The notes under the pieces: generated by a model
Databases searched by the model: none
What the model saw: only the letters and a program-made list of their open reading frames with translations
What the model was told of the DNA's origin: nothing
Source: Albimonas pacifica
GTDB lineage: Bacteria > Pseudomonadota > Alphaproteobacteria > Rhodobacterales > Rhodobacteraceae
Direction: 5' to 3'
Assembly (NCBI RefSeq): GCF_900113695.1
Contig: NZ_FOQH01000008.1
Span: 1 to 64,000 of the forward strand
Length of the DNA stretch: 64,000 nt
In this document: positions 6,625 through 45,627 of the stretch, piece by piece
Layout: the number at the start of each line of letters is the position of its first letter
How positions within the stretch are numbered: the stretch's first letter is position 1
Made by a program: the position numbers and the translations under genes

Positions 6625-6700
6625 GGGCCGTTAGCTCAGTTGGTAGAGCAGCTGACTTTTAATCAGCGGGTCGCAGGTTCGAATCCTGCACGGCTCACCA
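6625..6700 (+). tRNA. tRNA-Lys (anticodon UUU)
   Basis: The 76-nt sequence folds as a full cloverleaf. The acceptor stem is GGGCCGT paired with ACGGCTC (one G-U pair), followed by discriminator A and an encoded CCA end. The anticodon stem is GCTGA/TCAGC with loop CTTTTAA, giving anticodon UUU, and the T-arm contains GGTTCGAATCC. The 3' part (6653-6700) is supplied by the integrated phage, which restores an intact gene; the displaced chromosomal 3' end is now at 45580-45627. Confidence 0.98.
6653..6700. other. attL core (tRNA-Lys 3' end)
   Basis: This 48-nt stretch, from the anticodon arm to the CCA end, is repeated without mismatch at 45580-45627. Crossover took place somewhere within it. 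Confidence 0.95.
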
Positions 6701-7507: not shown

Positions 7508-7714
7508 CTCAAGCTCCTGTGATGGAGCCCGACGCCCGCTCGCCAAAACGGGTGGCCGGGCAACAGCGGGTTGGCGAACCGGCTCACAGGGACCGGCAGG
7601 CCCGAAGGCCTCCCACTGCGCCCGACCATAAAAGCCGCACCCATGGGGCGCGGCTTGCGAGCGCCTGTGAACGAAGCGGGTCGCCAAACCCGACGCGCCC
7701 TTTTTCGACGCGCA
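7508..7714 (-). promoter_or_regulatory. Antirepressor leader with C4-type decoy and target segments (copy 1)
   Basis: This leader of about 205 nt is homologous along its length to 27021-27225. In gene orientation it contains TTGGCGA (7681-7687) and TCACAGG (7664-7670); then their complements CCTGTGA (7584-7590) and TCGCCAA (7571-7577) inside the 76-nt C4-like RNA; then TTGGCGA (7540-7546) and TCACAGG (7516-7522), the latter overlapping the ribosome-binding site. The middle pair can therefore pair with either outer pair, and pairing with the last one would hide the ribosome-binding site. A terminator-like hairpin with a short T-run lies between the first pair and the C4 RNA. Confidence 0.75.
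7553..7628 (-). ncRNA. c4: C4-like antisense RNA (copy 1)
   Basis: A 76-nt unit is closed by a 9-bp stem (TGGTCGGGC with GCCCGGCCA). Inside are a hairpin AGGCC-TTCG-GGCCT and a CCGG/CCGG hairpin that displays CCTGTGA in its loop, followed by single-stranded TCGCCAA. This matches the size and arrangement of the C4 antisense RNA of phages P1 and P7, which is cut from the antirepressor transcript and blocks antirepressor translation. The two exposed segments are exact complements of the ribosome-binding region of the downstream antirepressor. Processing ends are inferred from the fold. Confidence 0.75.
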
Positions 7715-7748: not shown

Positions 7749-7793
7749 GGGTAGGCTCGCCCGTGGGCGAATCGCATTCTTCGGGGGGATTTG

Positions 7794-8093
7794 ATGTCGC
7801 TCGCTCTTTGGGCCCTTATCGGGATACTTTGCAAGAAGTGGTGGCAGGTCCTGATCGGCGCCGCGGTGCTGACCGTCCTCGCGATGCTGAGGTTCGAGTT
7901 CAACGTGGGGCCGAACTTGCGCGAGTTGGGCTACGCGCCGAGATCCTTCGGCGCGGTGCTGCTGGGGACCTTTCCGCTGCATGTCGCCGGCTGCTTCTTC
8001 TTCTTCGGTGTCAAGCACCTGGTGAAACGGATCGCGCGTCGGGCTGATGCGCGGCGGGGCATCTCGTCGGATGACGCCCCGCCGCAGTCTTGA
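7794..8093 (+). CDS. Small membrane protein of unknown function
   Basis: The 99-residue product has two or three hydrophobic segments (about residues 2-12, 15-32 and 51-72, the last containing HVAGCFFFFGVKHL) and a positively charged, polar C-terminal tail. It is divergent from antirepressor 1 and is the only rightward gene in the left block of the prophage. Its isolated position, opposite in direction to its neighbours, is typical of a lysogenically expressed moron gene. The family is not recognised. The ATG at 7794 is preceded by a GGGGGGA ribosome-binding site. Confidence 0.55.
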   Translation: MSLALWALIGILCKKWWQVLIGAAVLTVLAMLRFEFNVGPNLRELGYAPRSFGAVLLGTFPLHVAGCFFFFGVKHLVKRIARRADARRGISSDDAPPQS

Positions 8094-12530: not shown

Positions 12531-13145
12531 CTAGAGGCCGCGCCACATGCAGGCCACTACACCCTTGATAACTACTCGTTCATGATCGACCACCATTGGG
12601 CGAGCGAAGTCGGGTCGGGCGCTGAGCGCAAATATGATGGGCGGCTCGAAGCGTCGGAGCACCAGCGAGGCATTCCCCGTGGCAATATCGAGGACCTCCG
12701 CCAGCACGTCGTCCCCGCGTTTCGCGGTCTCAGCCTTGAGGCGATCAGACACCAGACAGTCCCCTGGCTTATAGCCGCCGAGGATCATGTGCTCAGTCTT
12801 GACGATCCAAGCGGTTCTGTGAGCACCGGCTATTCCGAAGAGGCTGAAGTACTCGTCGGAATTGCGAACCCCTGTCCAATCATACTCTTCAAGCTCACTT
12901 GAGGGATGCGCCGAACGGCCGGCCATGGCTTTCGCCGCCGGATGATGAAGCCCCGCTTTTTCCAGCACGAGATCGATTGGGATCTGTAGCAGGCTAGCAA
13001 AAGCTGAAACCTCTTCCGGCTTCAGTTTTCGTTCACCGCTGTAAATTCTAGATATGACGGTTCGATCCCGCCCGATCTTCCGGGCGAGATCATCATTTGT
13101 CACGCCCATTTGGCGCTGAAGCTTCTTGAAGAACGATGCATCCAT
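12531..13145 (-). CDS. Prophage repressor, HTH plus S24-like C-terminal domain
   Basis: The 204-residue protein starts with an Xre-type HTH (MGVTNDDLARKIGRDRTVIS, about residues 15-60). It continues with a C-terminal domain that looks like the LexA/CI peptidase fold (HMILGGYKPGDCLVSDR aligns with the usual nucleophile region). The nucleophile serine is replaced: the residue before Met is His. The usual catalytic lysine also seems to be Arg (LVLRRFEP). It may therefore dimerise but not self-cleave. It lies between two sets of operator-like repeats and is divergent from the Cro-like gene. An in-frame ATG at 13157 is an alternative start. Confidence 0.8.
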   Translation of the reverse strand: MDASFFKKLQRQMGVTNDDLARKIGRDRTVISRIYSGERKLKPEEVSAFASLLQIPIDLVLEKAGLHHPAAKAMAGRSAHPSSELEEYDWTGVRNSDEYFSLFGIAGAHRTAWIVKTEHMILGGYKPGDCLVSDRLKAETAKRGDDVLAEVLDIATGNASLVLRRFEPPIIFALSARPDFARPMVVDHERVVIKGVVACMWRGL

Positions 13146-13179
13146 GCGGCGCAACATGAGAGCGCGGAGCCGCACATAG

Positions 13180-25743: not shown

Positions 25744-26788
25744 CCGGCTGCTGCGGGCCCCGGCGGATGGCGGGCAGGGCGGCGATGGCGGCGGCGGCCA
25801 GGGCGGCGAGGGCGGCCAGGGCGGCGGCGAGGGCGCGGGCCAGGGCGGCGCGGGCGACGGCGGCGCGGCCGGCGCGGGCGGCGAAGGCGGCGCGACGGGC
25901 GGCGGCGATGGAGGCCAGGGCGACGGCGGCGCTGGCGGAGGCAAGGGCGACGGCAAGCCCTGGTGGGAGCGCGACGGCTTCCTGAAGTCCGACGAGGTCG
26001 ACTGGCTTCGGTCGAAGGGTTTCAACCAGGAGCTCACGCCCGAGCTGATGGCGCGTGCCCTGCGCAGCTACCGCGCCGCCGAGACCAAGATGGGGCGGCC
26101 TGCCGACAGCCTCATGGACAAGCCGGGGAAGGACCAGCCGGTCGCGGAATGGATGAAGGCGAACCGCGAGCTGTTCGGCCTGCCGGAGGCGCCCGACGGC
26201 TACGAGATCAAGCGCCCCGACATGCCCGAGGGCGTCACGTGGGACGAGGGTCTCGAGACGAAGTTCCGCGAGATCGGCCACGCCAACGGCATGACGCCTG
26301 CTCAGATGCAGGCGAGCGTCGACATGTTCGCCGAGATGCGGAAGACCGAGTTCGAGACCCTGGCGACGGAGCTGCAGACGGCGGGCGAGGAAATGCGCCA
26401 GCAGCTCGAGCGCGACTGGGGCGACCAGTATTCCGCCAAGGTCAAGCAGGCGCAGCAGGCGGCCCAGGCGATGGGCGAGAAGGCGGGGCTCGACACCGAG
26501 CAGATCCTCTCGATCGGCCAGCTCCTGAAACCCAAGGTCGGCGACGCCGGGATCATGCGGCTGTTCGCGGCGATCGGCGCGGCGATGGGCGACGACGGTT
26601 TCGTCCCCGGCGCCGGCGGCGGCCCGGGGATCGGCATGACGCCCCAGGAGGCGAAGGCCGAGCATGATCGGTTCGTCGGGCTGGACGGCGAGTATGGGAA
26701 GGCCTACCGCGCGGGCGATCAGCCGAAGATGCGCGAGCTGAACGCAAAGCGCCTGCAGTTGCTCAAACTGGCCTCTGGTCAGGGCTGA
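25706..26788 (+). CDS. Scaffolding protein
   Basis: The 360-residue protein is placed between portal and capsid. It has a long Gly/Ala/Asp/Glu-rich N-terminal region (about residues 20-85), then WWERDGFLKSDEVDWLRSKG and a 'FGLPEAPDGYEI' motif typical of podovirus scaffolds, and a helical charged C-terminal half. It would guide capsid assembly and leave before packaging. Its ATG has GGAG 7 nt upstream inside the preceding gene. The Gly-rich region is strongly biased, but the frame is kept. Confidence 0.8.
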   Translation: MRPRMTIVPVWLDRLLRAPADGGQGGDGGGGQGGEGGQGGGEGAGQGGAGDGGAAGAGGEGGATGGGDGGQGDGGAGGGKGDGKPWWERDGFLKSDEVDWLRSKGFNQELTPELMARALRSYRAAETKMGRPADSLMDKPGKDQPVAEWMKANRELFGLPEAPDGYEIKRPDMPEGVTWDEGLETKFREIGHANGMTPAQMQASVDMFAEMRKTEFETLATELQTAGEEMRQQLERDWGDQYSAKVKQAQQAAQAMGEKAGLDTEQILSIGQLLKPKVGDAGIMRLFAAIGAAMGDDGFVPGAGGGPGIGMTPQEAKAEHDRFVGLDGEYGKAYRAGDQPKMRELNAKRLQLLKLASGQG

Positions 26789-26973
26789 GGATCGCCGGAG
26801 GTGGCGAGCGCATCGCATTGTTCGGCGATGCGGGCGCGCGCCTCCTCCGTCGCGATCAGGCACGGGAAAGACCAGAACGTCACGTCCGGTTCGGGCGCCG
26901 GCGTCGGACGCTCGGGCGCGGCGCAGCCCGCGACCATGAGCAGGGCACTGCAAACAATGGGAGAATATCGCAT
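26779..26973 (-). CDS. Small lipoprotein on the opposite strand (moron or Rz1-like)
   Basis: The 64-residue product starts with a lipoprotein signal peptide (MRYSPIVCSALLMVAGCAAP, lipobox VAGC, Cys17) and continues with a short Pro-rich stretch. It runs against the late genes, overlapping the scaffold end by 10 nt. Such genes are often morons expressed in the lysogen, for example to block superinfection. An Rz1-like outer spanin is possible, since Rz1 proteins are short Pro-rich lipoproteins, but the true lysis genes are far away and no partner gene is adjacent. Confidence 0.6.
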   Translation of the reverse strand: MRYSPIVCSALLMVAGCAAPERPTPAPEPDVTFWSFPCLIATEEARARIAEQCDALATSGDPQP

Positions 26974-26986
26974 CTCAACTCGCCTG

Positions 26987-27015
26987 TTGAATGACCGGGC
27001 AGCTTATTTTACATT
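26987..27015 (+). promoter_or_regulatory. Promoter for C4-like RNA 2 and antirepressor 2
   Basis: TTGAAT and TACATT are separated by 17 nt and predict a start near 27022, the first base of homology with the other leader. The promoter allows the antirepressor and C4-like RNA to be expressed inside the late gene block without late transcription. Confidence 0.65.
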
Positions 27016-27020
27016 CGGGG

Positions 27021-27225
27021 TGCGCGCCGAAAAAGGGTGCGCCGGGATTGACAGCCCGTTCGTTCACAGGCGCTCGTAAGCCGCGCCCTAGGGTGCGGCT
27101 TTTATGGTCGGGCGCAATGGGAGGCCTTCGGGCCTGCCGGTCCCTGTGAGCCGGTCTGTCAACCCGTTGTTGCCCGGCCACCCCGAGTTGACAGTCGGGC
27201 CCCGGGTTCATCACAGGAGCCCGAC
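27021..27225 (+). promoter_or_regulatory. Antirepressor leader with C4-type decoy and target segments (copy 2)
   Basis: The order of segments is TTGACAG (27048-27054), TCACAGG (27064-27070), a terminator-like hairpin (27078-27101, followed by TTTTA), the 76-nt C4-like RNA with CCTGTGA (27143-27149) and CTGTCAA (27156-27162), then TTGACAG (27188-27194) and TCACAGG (27211-27217), where the last overlaps the AGGAG ribosome-binding site. The middle pair can bind the first or the last pair. In the other copy the TTGACAG class is TTGGCGA at all three positions. Confidence 0.8.
27105..27180 (+). ncRNA. c4: C4-like antisense RNA (copy 2)
   Basis: A 9-bp closing stem (27105-27113 with 27172-27180) encloses a UUCG hairpin (27122-27135) and a CCGG/CCGG hairpin with CCTGTGA in its loop, then single-stranded CTGTCAA. 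The total is 76 nt, close to the size of the P1/P7 C4 RNA. Both exposed segments are exact complements of the antirepressor ribosome-binding region downstream. The closing stem and UUCG hairpin are identical in the first copy. Confidence 0.8.
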
Positions 27226-27909
27226 ATGCTGGACCTTCTCAGCTTCGAAGATACCGAGATCGAGGTCATCCGCCGGGACGGCGAGATGTGGTTGTCCGCC
27301 CGCGATCTGGCCGATGCGCTCGGCTACGCCGACATGAGCTCGGTGCTGCGGCTCTACCAGCGGAACGAAGACGAGTTCACCTCGGACATGACCGCAATCA
27401 TCAAGCTCGGCAAAGGCACGGTCAATCTGACCGCACCTTCGAACGCACAGGAGACCCGCGTTTTCTCCCTCCGCGGCGCTCACCTGGTTGCGATGCTGGC
27501 GAAGACCGAGCGGGCCAAGGCGTTCCGCCGCTGGGTGCTCGACCTGATCGAGCAGGAGGGGGACCGCCGGCCGCCGGCGGCGGGCCTGCCGGTCCCCGCG
27601 CTCGACCCGTTCGCCCCCTTCCTCCCGGCCGACCGCGCCCACCTGAACCGCATCGCCCACTGGCGCGGGATCCGCGACCAGGCGCAGGCCCGCCTGGCCG
27701 AGCTGGGCGAGCCACCCCTCGCCGGCGGTTTCGCCGGCCCGATGCCGCGGGTGGGCGGCCTCTCGGCCGAGGACCTCGCCGACCTGATCGCCGAGGCCCG
27801 GGCCATCCGGGACCGCCGGCGCGCCGACGTGCGCATGGACGGCAACCCCTTCGCCATCGACCTCTACGTGATCCTCGAAGAGGCGTTGCGGAACTTCGCG
27901 GCACGCTGA
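27226..27909 (+). CDS. BRO-N domain antirepressor (copy 2)
   Basis: The 227-residue protein is a close paralogue of the one at 6812-7507. The BRO-N domain (MLDLLSFEDTEIEVIRRDG...) and the C-terminal half are nearly the same; residues about 54-76 differ strongly. It is expected to bind and inactivate the repressor. Its position between scaffold and capsid, with its own promoter and leader, makes it a cassette inserted into the late operon. AGGAG lies 6 nt before the ATG. The divergent segment may decide which repressor each copy recognises. Confidence 0.85.
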   Translation: MLDLLSFEDTEIEVIRRDGEMWLSARDLADALGYADMSSVLRLYQRNEDEFTSDMTAIIKLGKGTVNLTAPSNAQETRVFSLRGAHLVAMLAKTERAKAFRRWVLDLIEQEGDRRPPAAGLPVPALDPFAPFLPADRAHLNRIAHWRGIRDQAQARLAELGEPPLAGGFAGPMPRVGGLSAEDLADLIAEARAIRDRRRADVRMDGNPFAIDLYVILEEALRNFAAR

Positions 27910-27918
27910 ACGCGAAAA

Positions 27919-27932
27919 CCCCTTGACAGGGG
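27919..27932 (+). promoter_or_regulatory. Hairpin displaying a further TTGACA motif
   Basis: CCCC-TTGACA-GGGG directly follows the antirepressor stop codon and repeats the variable segment found three times in its leader (TTGACAG at 27923-27929). It could titrate C4-like RNA 2, or be a weak -35 element; no good -10 follows at the right distance. The rest of the 27910-28127 gap shows no gene. Confidence 0.4.
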
Positions 27933-28127
27933 ATTCGGCGTCTCGGCATTTTCCTCCTCGCCGGCGGCCTTCGGGCCCCCGGCAGTCCGGGCAACCGCAA
28001 CCCCAGCGGTCCGGCTGACCGCGGGAACAGACCGCCGCCCCACGCCTGCGCATGGCGAGGAAGGGTCCGGCGTTCCGGGCAACCCTACCGGCAACCTCCT
28101 GTCATTGGTCGCCTGTAGGGAAATCCC

Positions 28128-29045
28128 ATGCCGTTCGACCAGCTGGTGGAAGCCCACCACCGCACCACCTTCAAGGCCACGTTCGAGCTCGCGCTGCAGC
28201 AGAACGGGTCGAAGCTCCGCCCGCACGTCGGCGAGACGGCGTGCTCCGGCGAGGGCGCCACGGCCGCCGACATCATCGGGAAGGTCGACTACCAGCGCGG
28301 TTCCGGCCGCCGCCGTTCCAACATCGAGAACGTCCCCGGCCGGACCCGCCGCTGGCACGTCTTCCCGGACCCGCTCGAGACCGGCCAGTATCTCGACAGC
28401 GTCGACAAGTTCCGCATGATCGAGGATCCGACCTCCAAGCTGATGATGGCCCATACGGCCGCGATCGGCCGCGGGATCGACGACATCATCCTCGGCATCA
28501 ACCCGGACGGGACGCTCTACCAGGGCGGCATCCTCGGGCCGATCTCCGAGGGCAAGCAGCCGGGCTCGGGGACCAAGGCGCTGCCGTCCGCCCAGGTCAC
28601 GGTCCACGGCGGGACCGGCCTGACCATCGAGAAGCTGCGCAAGGCGCGCAAGCGGCTCGGCCTCGACGAGAACGACCTGGACCGGGTGACGCCGATCATG
28701 GCGATCACCATGAACCAGGACGACGACCTGCTGGGCATCGTCGAGAGCGCTTCGGCGAACCTCAACATGCTCGAGCAGCCGCATATCGTCGACGGCAAGG
28801 TCACGCGGCTGATGGGCTTCCAGTTCGTCCGCATCAACCGCCTGCCCAAGCTGCAGACCAACGTCAGGTCCTGCCCGGTCTGGATCAAGGACATGGTCGA
28901 GCTGGGCGTCTGGCAGGACGTGAAGCCGGACATGTGGAACGACACCCACGCCCGCAACACCCCCTACATGCACGCCGACGCCTGGATGGACTGCGTCCGC
29001 ATCCAGGACGAGGGCGTGCACGTCGCGGAGTGCACCGAGAGCTGA
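28128..29045 (+). CDS. Major capsid protein
   Basis: The 305-residue protein follows the scaffold gene (after the antirepressor cassette) and has the features of the BPP-1-like podovirus capsid family: MPFDQLVEAHHRTTFKATF, a GRTRRWHVFPDPLETGQYLD stretch, KLMMAHTAAIGRGIDDIILG, and a C-terminal part with 'RNTPYMHADAWMDCVRIQD'. These suit an HK97-fold capsid. The gene has GTAGGGA before its ATG. Hundreds of copies would form the head. Confidence 0.85.
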   Translation: MPFDQLVEAHHRTTFKATFELALQQNGSKLRPHVGETACSGEGATAADIIGKVDYQRGSGRRRSNIENVPGRTRRWHVFPDPLETGQYLDSVDKFRMIEDPTSKLMMAHTAAIGRGIDDIILGINPDGTLYQGGILGPISEGKQPGSGTKALPSAQVTVHGGTGLTIEKLRKARKRLGLDENDLDRVTPIMAITMNQDDDLLGIVESASANLNMLEQPHIVDGKVTRLMGFQFVRINRLPKLQTNVRSCPVWIKDMVELGVWQDVKPDMWNDTHARNTPYMHADAWMDCVRIQDEGVHVAECTES

Positions 29046-45579: not shown

Positions 45580-45627
45580 TGACTTTTAATCAGCGGGTCG
45601 CAGGTTCGAATCCTGCACGGCTCACCA
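45580..45627. other. attR core (displaced 3' end of tRNA-Lys)
   Basis: The 48 nt are identical to 6653-6700. Lacking the 5' half, this is not a functional tRNA. An AT-rich patch just inside (about 45561-45578) could help protein-induced bending at the site. The region from 45628 to 45904 that follows is GC-rich and holds no gene. Confidence 0.95.

Follow-up and report, generated by a model that had tools for sequence, protein, structure and literature searches.

Results

Two C4 cassettes precede antirepressor genes in one contig of Albimonas pacifica

The stretch analysed here, called the window below, comprises the first 64,000 nt of contig NZ_FOQH01000008.1 of Albimonas pacifica. It contains two loci, A and B, in each of which an intact Bro-N antirepressor gene (ant) begins within 50 nt downstream of a C4 antisense RNA (Table 1). 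Both C4s match RF01695 from end to end and exceed its gathering cut-off of 45 bits, which bears out the original prediction that both loci are of the C4 type, and they are the only RF01695 matches in the 6.02-Mb assembly. Following the naming used for phage P1, we refer to the hairpin-loop segment CCTGTGA as b' and to the 7-nt junction segment as a'. In both loci, a' and b' lie in loops and are complementary to the a1/b1 segments upstream and the a2/b2 segments downstream, giving the common order a1, b1, C4 (b', a'), a2, b2, start codon. The b2 segment directly adjoins ant, reading TCACAGG-AG followed by the ATG of the Bro-N gene, and a TAT-GG is found at the expected C4 end, as in P1, where a GG end is expected for release by RNase P.

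Table 1. Positions of the cassette and prophage features in the window, listed from attL to attR.
Feature	Position	Strand	Basis or remark
attL, 3' end of tRNA-Lys(TTT)	6676..6700	+	25-bp exact repeat
Bro-N antirepressor gene B, 231 aa	6812..7507	-	PF02498 1.8e-12; PHROG anti-repressor Ant 2.8e-32
b2 TCACAGG, locus B	7522-7516	-	overlaps Shine-Dalgarno AGGAG
a2 TTGGCGA, locus B	7546-7540	-	sequence match
C4 antisense RNA, locus B	7548..7633	-	RF01695 74.1 bits, E 1.4e-12
a' TCGCCAA, locus B	7577-7571	-	sequence match
b' CCTGTGA, locus B	7590-7584	-	sequence match
Terminator-like hairpin + TTTT, b1-C4 interval, locus B	7630..7654	-	35-nt stretch folds at -18.5 kcal/mol
b1 TCACAGG, locus B	7670-7664	-	sequence match
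a1 TTGGCGA, locus B	7687-7681	-	sequence match; flanks CGGG/CCCG can close a small hairpin (fold)
Probable prophage repressor, candidate antirepressor target	12531..13175	-	weak PHROG repressor matches, best 1.7e-05
a1 TTGACAG, locus A	27048-27054	+	flanks CGGG/CCCG; fragment folds without that hairpin
b1 TCACAGG, locus A	27064-27070	+	sequence match
Terminator-like hairpin + TTTT, b1-C4 interval, locus A	27080..27103	+	35-nt stretch folds at -15.3 kcal/mol
C4 antisense RNA, locus A	27100..27185	+	RF01695 72.7 bits, E 3e-12
b' CCTGTGA, locus A	27143-27149	+	sequence match
a' CTGTCAA, locus A	27156-27162	+	same a code as phage P1
a2 TTGACAG, locus A	27188-27194	+	sequence match
b2 TCACAGG, locus A	27211-27217	+	overlaps Shine-Dalgarno AGGAG
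Bro-N antirepressor gene A, 227 aa	27226..27909	+	PF02498 3.7e-11; 81% identical to B
attR, exact 25-bp copy of tRNA end	45603..45627	+	repeat match

Counted singly over the window, the 7-mers are close to chance: TCACAGG occurs six times (3.8 expected; as many in 22 of 100 shuffles), TTGACAG four times (1.7 expected; 9 of 100) and TTGGCGA 13 times (6.8 expected; 3 of 100). The evidence lies in the order and spacing of the segments together with the covariance-model matches.

Both loci belong to a single prophage

The tRNA-Lys repeat had no match in 100 shuffles, and an IMG/VR record of 38,441 bp carries two C4s at the same spacing with both Ants at 100% identity. Because of this repeat pair and this record we regard the region as a single prophage of ∼39 kb, and the placement of loci A and B inside it is supported. 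PHROG matches between the att sites comprise, for lysogeny and replication, an integrase, a DNA-binding/excisionase-like protein, a weak repressor match and primases and, for structure and packaging, a terminase, a head-tail adaptor, a protease-like protein, a major head protein, tail proteins and an internal virion protein. We read the head-tail adaptor as the portal, the protease-like protein as the scaffold and the gene set as that of a temperate podovirus. Cassette B lies just inside attL, and cassette A between the scaffold and capsid genes.

In related prophages, the scaffold-major capsid junction (window 26788-28128) is filled differently between aligned ends: with ∼0.27 kb in genome G368, 1.3–1.5 kb in G137 and G389, 3.9 kb in G341, and 4.2 kb in G318, the last including an apparent lysozyme gene, as read by eye. 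No C4 was found in genome G318. The related prophage of G341 carries one C4 (L005, G341:C150:466-548) with the code AGTTCCAA, situated left of the integrase on the same strand, a placement that resembles that of cassette B.

Features of the leaders

In both leaders, the TTTT that follows the terminator-like hairpin is also the start of the Rfam C4 match; a stricter terminator scan returned no site in either leader. A similar hairpin with a T run was seen in 123 of 211 loci of the survey described below, against 2 of 220 in a control downstream stretch of unmatched length. The a1-b1 region and this hairpin may serve to tune transcription of C4 or ant. Among the survey loci, a1 is flanked by a stem of at least four pairs in 179 of 213 cases (17.8% at random positions of the same stretches) and a2 in 104 of 188 (11.2%).

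A promoter scan of the two leaders gave none at ≥ 9/12. By eye, we noticed a promoter-like pair under this limit, at 8/12, in each leader: TTGAAC-17-TACGAT at 7748-7720 (-) in leader B and TTGAAT-17-TACATT at 26987-27015 (+) in leader A, the place of the latter matching that of the former. Two small genes, 26779-26973 (-) and 7791-8093 (+), point away from the respective C4 leaders; judged by eye, their products look lipoprotein-like and membrane-protein-like.

The a segments differ in step while b is constant

The original prediction gave its coordinates and the segments of both loci correctly, and the two leaders do align, with 84% mean column identity. It had also stated that the a segment was switched coordinately, which the alignment confirmed: TCGCCAA of locus B and CTGTCAA of locus A differ at three bases, each mirrored at a1 and a2, while b1, b' and b2 do not differ. 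With the a' and b' loops set aside, the C4 bodies show 94% identity. In the alignment, C4-A and C4-B differ at the three a' bases, at one base pair that is changed on both sides (G-C/A-U) and at the last two bases. The observation is more than chance; these are two C4 loci with switched specificity.

The antirepressors and the origin of the pair

The two Ants score 48.2 and 43.9 bits with PF02498, above its cut-off of 25.6, and share 187 of 230 positions (81% over their length). At E ≤ 1e-20, Ant A had no match in another genome among 394 genomes of the family. Among viral contigs, nothing outside the prophage covers 80% of Ant B or at least 80% of Ant A, for which the one other match (L205) reaches 35% identity over residues 1-114. 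All matches listed for Ant B in plasmids (15 of 43 records) and for Ant A in phages (15 of 57 records) end by residue 123, and none covers 80%; a blastn search of phages with leader B gave no match. Since the Ants are 81% identical and no outside match covers 80% of either, cassettes A and B look like duplicates that probably arose within the prophage's own lineage, a reading that the sequence comparison supports well.

Divergence between the Ants is concentrated in codons 37-82, with a dN of 0.505 and a dS of 1.0, against a dN of 0.015–0.11 in the other four stretches. This pattern suggests that part of the Bro-N region was replaced, which may affect which repressor each Ant binds. The candidate repressor (12531-13175) gave a tblastn match in four of the five related prophages examined and none in G318. 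It is the one repressor-like gene among 30 prophage proteins scanned against PHROGs.

A survey of C4 loci reveals covariation of a1, a' and a2

The survey drew on several sources. In the family sample (394 genomes) at least six genomes had a match and at least four were over the cut-off, and in the phylum sample (398 genomes) at least 62 and at least 60, respectively; these counts are lower bounds, as ten candidates were scored per genome under stricter filters. Part of the listed matches were fetched. Named genomes known to hold a C4 numbered 25, drawn from 40 stretches of which 12 looked like chance and three lay in the same genomes. From viral records, 32 of 42 C4-like carriers were included, seven of the remaining ten repeating a C4 already present. 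A loose pattern scan of viral contigs, in which ∼6 of the 120 matches listed were C4-like, was replaced by a tighter pattern that gave 37 stretches. After removal of two low scorers (L433, L434) and merging of 14 repeats, the 236 loci entered yielded 220 distinct C4 loci, with the best C4 scored per locus (a second C4 in L417 and two further C4s in L390, which has three, are uncounted).

Among these loci a' is spelled in 72 ways, which include some register variants of a single code. The locus B code TCGCCAA is the commonest (22 loci) and the locus A code CTGTCAA the third (15 loci). An exact complement of a' of at least 7 nt was present downstream in 173 of 220 cognate pairs, as compared with 1,099 of 46,678 non-cognate pairs (2.4%), and upstream in 194 of 218, as compared with 2,765 of 46,260 (6.0%); these counts treat related loci as separate sequences, to which the near-identical pairs below are a partial answer. 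Because the cognate rates far exceed the non-cognate rates, we conclude that a1, a' and a2 covary, as the original prediction proposed for related prophages. Independent variation of the three segments, the outcome it had named as refuting, did not appear as a rule. The b segments gave a less sharp picture than a, with a complement of b' downstream in 136 of 220 loci (5.7% non-cognate) and upstream in 146 of 218 (9.5%), b' extraction having failed in 11 of the 220, including L007 and L411, which both match a of locus A. Beyond the window's own loci, each code has one survey locus whose a' (≥ 7 nt) and b' (≥ 6 nt) both fit the window target: L218 for A and L268 for B.

Contrary to the rule, the downstream complement of a' is shorter than 6 nt in 32 of the 220 loci, several of which come from groups that keep a1, many without a2. 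Such matched a1 segments, often with no matched a2, were seen in L395-L407 (G542, G738, G823), L363-L367 (G599), L373-L374 (G756) and L375-L379 (G733); a1 therefore seems to act in its own right.

Seventeen locus pairs combine different a' codes with C4s of equal length whose bodies are ≥ 90% alike, not all pairs being independent of one another. In 16 of the 17, both members keep a1 and a2 matched (≥ 6 nt), and in six, the window pair included, no a cross-match of 6 nt or more is left.

Cross-pairing is predicted to be weakened at a and unchanged at b

For the a2 duplexes, energies were computed with a single flanking base on either side. The cognate a'-a2 duplexes reach -10.6 kcal/mol (A on A) and -11.1 kcal/mol (B on B), as against -5.0 kcal/mol for C4-A on leader B and -2.6 kcal/mol for C4-B on leader A. 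In contrast, b'-b2 has -11.9 kcal/mol in all four combinations. The original prediction that pairing is kept within each locus and broken between loci was hence right for the cognate pairs; between loci a pairing is weakened, whereas b pairing does not change. In RNA, each of the three a' differences exchanges C and U. At two positions, the U of C4-A can pair with the G of leader B while the C of C4-B faces an A in leader A; at the outermost, the asymmetry is reversed. C4-A still forms six a pairs on leader B, two of which we read as G.U. Whole-molecule cofolding returned a binding gain of 0 to -0.5 kcal/mol for any combination, loop-loop contacts lying outside its model.

As b at the ribosome site is shared and pairing is weakened for a alone, cross-talk should be partial and lopsided: cross-repression is predicted to be reduced rather than abolished, with C4-A acting more strongly on leader B than C4-B on leader A. 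P1 and P7, reported to be heteroimmune (PMC6906374; PMC12197685), served as a yardstick. For a and b together they retain -8.2 and -6.9 kcal/mol across types, against about -20 kcal/mol within type, and both a and b cross-pairing are weakened; the window pair retains -16.9 and -14.5 kcal/mol across, against -22.5 and -23.0 kcal/mol within, with a weakened and b unchanged. Since P1 and P7 lose far more pairing, full independence of the window pair does not follow, and its two codes are probably only partly independent.

Codes of C4s that share a genome

C4 pairs at most 45 kb apart on one contig differ in code in 12 of 14 cases, and between-genome pairs in 96%. Over the whole set, same-code pairs were commoner within genomes (56 of 431) than between them (888 of 24,994). 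When codes were permuted within three taxonomic families, the observed same-code pairs within genomes were 25 of 233 in f44 (21.3 expected), 1 of 35 in f49 (1.5 expected) and 2 of 23 in f46 (3.7 expected). Selection for different codes among C4s that share a genome was not supported, as within-genome codes are no more distinct than chance.

Discussion

Loci A and B agree in anatomy, each has the full set of complementary segments, and their a segments changed in a coordinated manner. We consider it probable that a C4-antirepressor cassette was duplicated and that the a code of one copy was switched in step, leaving each C4 best suited to its own leader. The duplication would have occurred within the prophage's own lineage. 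Each cassette would be transcribed as a1-b1, terminator-like hairpin, C4, a2-b2 and ant, and C4 would be freed from this transcript as it is in P1. The b' hairpin loop could then pair with b2 at the Shine-Dalgarno sequence and the 7-nt a' junction loop with a2, so blocking synthesis of the Bro-N antirepressor and keeping the prophage quiet; by this model, relief of the repression would bear on induction. After duplication, a1, a' and a2 of one copy would have changed together with b held constant and, as a was switched and b kept, each C4 should act best on its own leader.

The shared b invites a different reading, in which a drifts near-neutrally and the C4s repress each other's targets through b, making one lock in two copies with a dosage reserve. 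The identical b'/b2 duplexes and the chance-like distinctness of codes within genomes (the f44, f49 and f46 counts) are in its favour. Yet every base change in a' is mirrored at a1 and a2, and functionless drift would not preserve the matched a codes seen in 16 of the 17 code-switched pairs, so that we give this reading a lesser, though appreciable, chance. A further view takes the Ants rather than the C4s as the point of difference: two locks with two keys, each cassette serving a different repressor because its Ant has a different partner. The high dN of Ant codons 37-82 relative to the other four stretches would fit, but dS is also high there, which points to recombination of this segment more than to selection for a new partner, and one repressor-like gene was found among the 30 proteins scanned, a subset of the prophage genes; we hold this view to be rather doubtful.

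Locus A might instead be a moron from another phage and not a duplicate of B. It does sit at the scaffold-major capsid junction, whose content varies from ∼0.27 kb in G368 to 4.2 kb in G318, where no C4 was found. The 94% identity of the C4 bodies and the lack, in the collections searched, of an outside match covering 80% of either Ant make such an origin improbable. Chance resemblance is excluded by Rfam E-values of ∼1e-12; individual 7-mers are near chance by count, but with intact reading frames and full matched segment sets in both loci, the idea of a fortuitous or non-functional remnant is hardly credible.

The two locks on induction and the double immunity of the original prediction are plausible but, like its full separation of the two loci, go beyond the evidence. 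More broadly, and tentatively, C4s of Proteobacteria might share a 7-nt immunity-code alphabet in which duplication plus a three-site a switch adds a second code; here the Bro-N segment would have switched too, giving two separately gated induction routes and a wider range of silenced phages. As the window pair differs in a alone, it offers a natural test of the shares of a and b in C4 specificity. Because a1, a' and a2 change in concert across dozens of codes, a and b should largely reveal which immunity type a C4 phage has, and phages with two C4 types can be picked out from these segments.

Among the closest known systems is the immI region (c4-icd-ant) of P1. The order a1-b1-C4-a2-b2 is as annotated in the P1 record, the P1 a1/a2 sequence TTGACAG is the exact code of window locus A, and b2 lies immediately ahead of the controlled reading frame. 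P1 differs in having one C4, in the icd between C4 and ant (in the window b2 is directly at the ant start) and in its b segment, which is unlike that of the window. PMC5320573 describes a as the specificity element and b' as acting at the ribosome site, and credits Citron & Schuster 1990 with the finding that a difference of 4 nt suffices to prevent cross-reaction. As originally stated, P1 and P7 differ by small C4 changes; these have matching target switches, which recalls the window pair. In their case, however, the difference is between two phages and affects two nucleotides each of a' and b', whereas one prophage here has 3 nt changed in a' and none in b'. Weinberg et al. 2010 (PMC2864571) give both a c4 and a c4-a1b1 motif, so the upstream a1-b1 target is already a recognised conserved structure; the portion of the main text available to us does not mention a phage with two codes. 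C4-like RNAs with variable a' loops are also described for Acinetobacter baumannii Group 1, with 21 similar sequences in one genome, and PMC5320573 favours their acting on new host mRNA targets; in contrast, a' codes in our survey, which named no Acinetobacter genome, mostly lie beside their own a1 and a2.

Dual codes recur among P1-like phages. Whereas P1 and P7 have one C4 each, RCS47, JL22 and 673R5 have two and D6 has two over the cut-off plus one below (these four were chosen for two listed C4 places, six of 27 records being searched). Their two a codes differ in all four cases, as they do in the window prophage, where each code is likewise matched by its own targets. In RCS47, JL22 and D6 every target shares a match of 7–8 nt with its own C4; in the second C4 of 673R5 only a1 is well matched, a2, b1 and b2 having 4 nt each. 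Unlike in the window, a and b both differ between the cassettes of these phages (longest cross-match 6 nt), which should therefore be more independent than the window pair. JL22 (L470, JL22 43517) combines the a code of P1 with the b segment of P7, so the two segments can be exchanged independently of each other. Other different-code pairs, in one record or close together on one contig, occur in Aeromonas genomes G413 and G409 and in G642 and G446, and close pairs with the same a code in G446 and G407. A second c4/icd region has been reported in the D6-like pYU39_89 (PMC6799933), and an extra ant between pacB and c1 (PMC6906374). In the open-access literature, largely as titles and opening parts of abstracts, we found no paper discussing two C4 specificities within one phage. 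Two differently coded C4s in one phage are a real, but recurring, arrangement; in the Albimonas prophage, a is switched and b kept.
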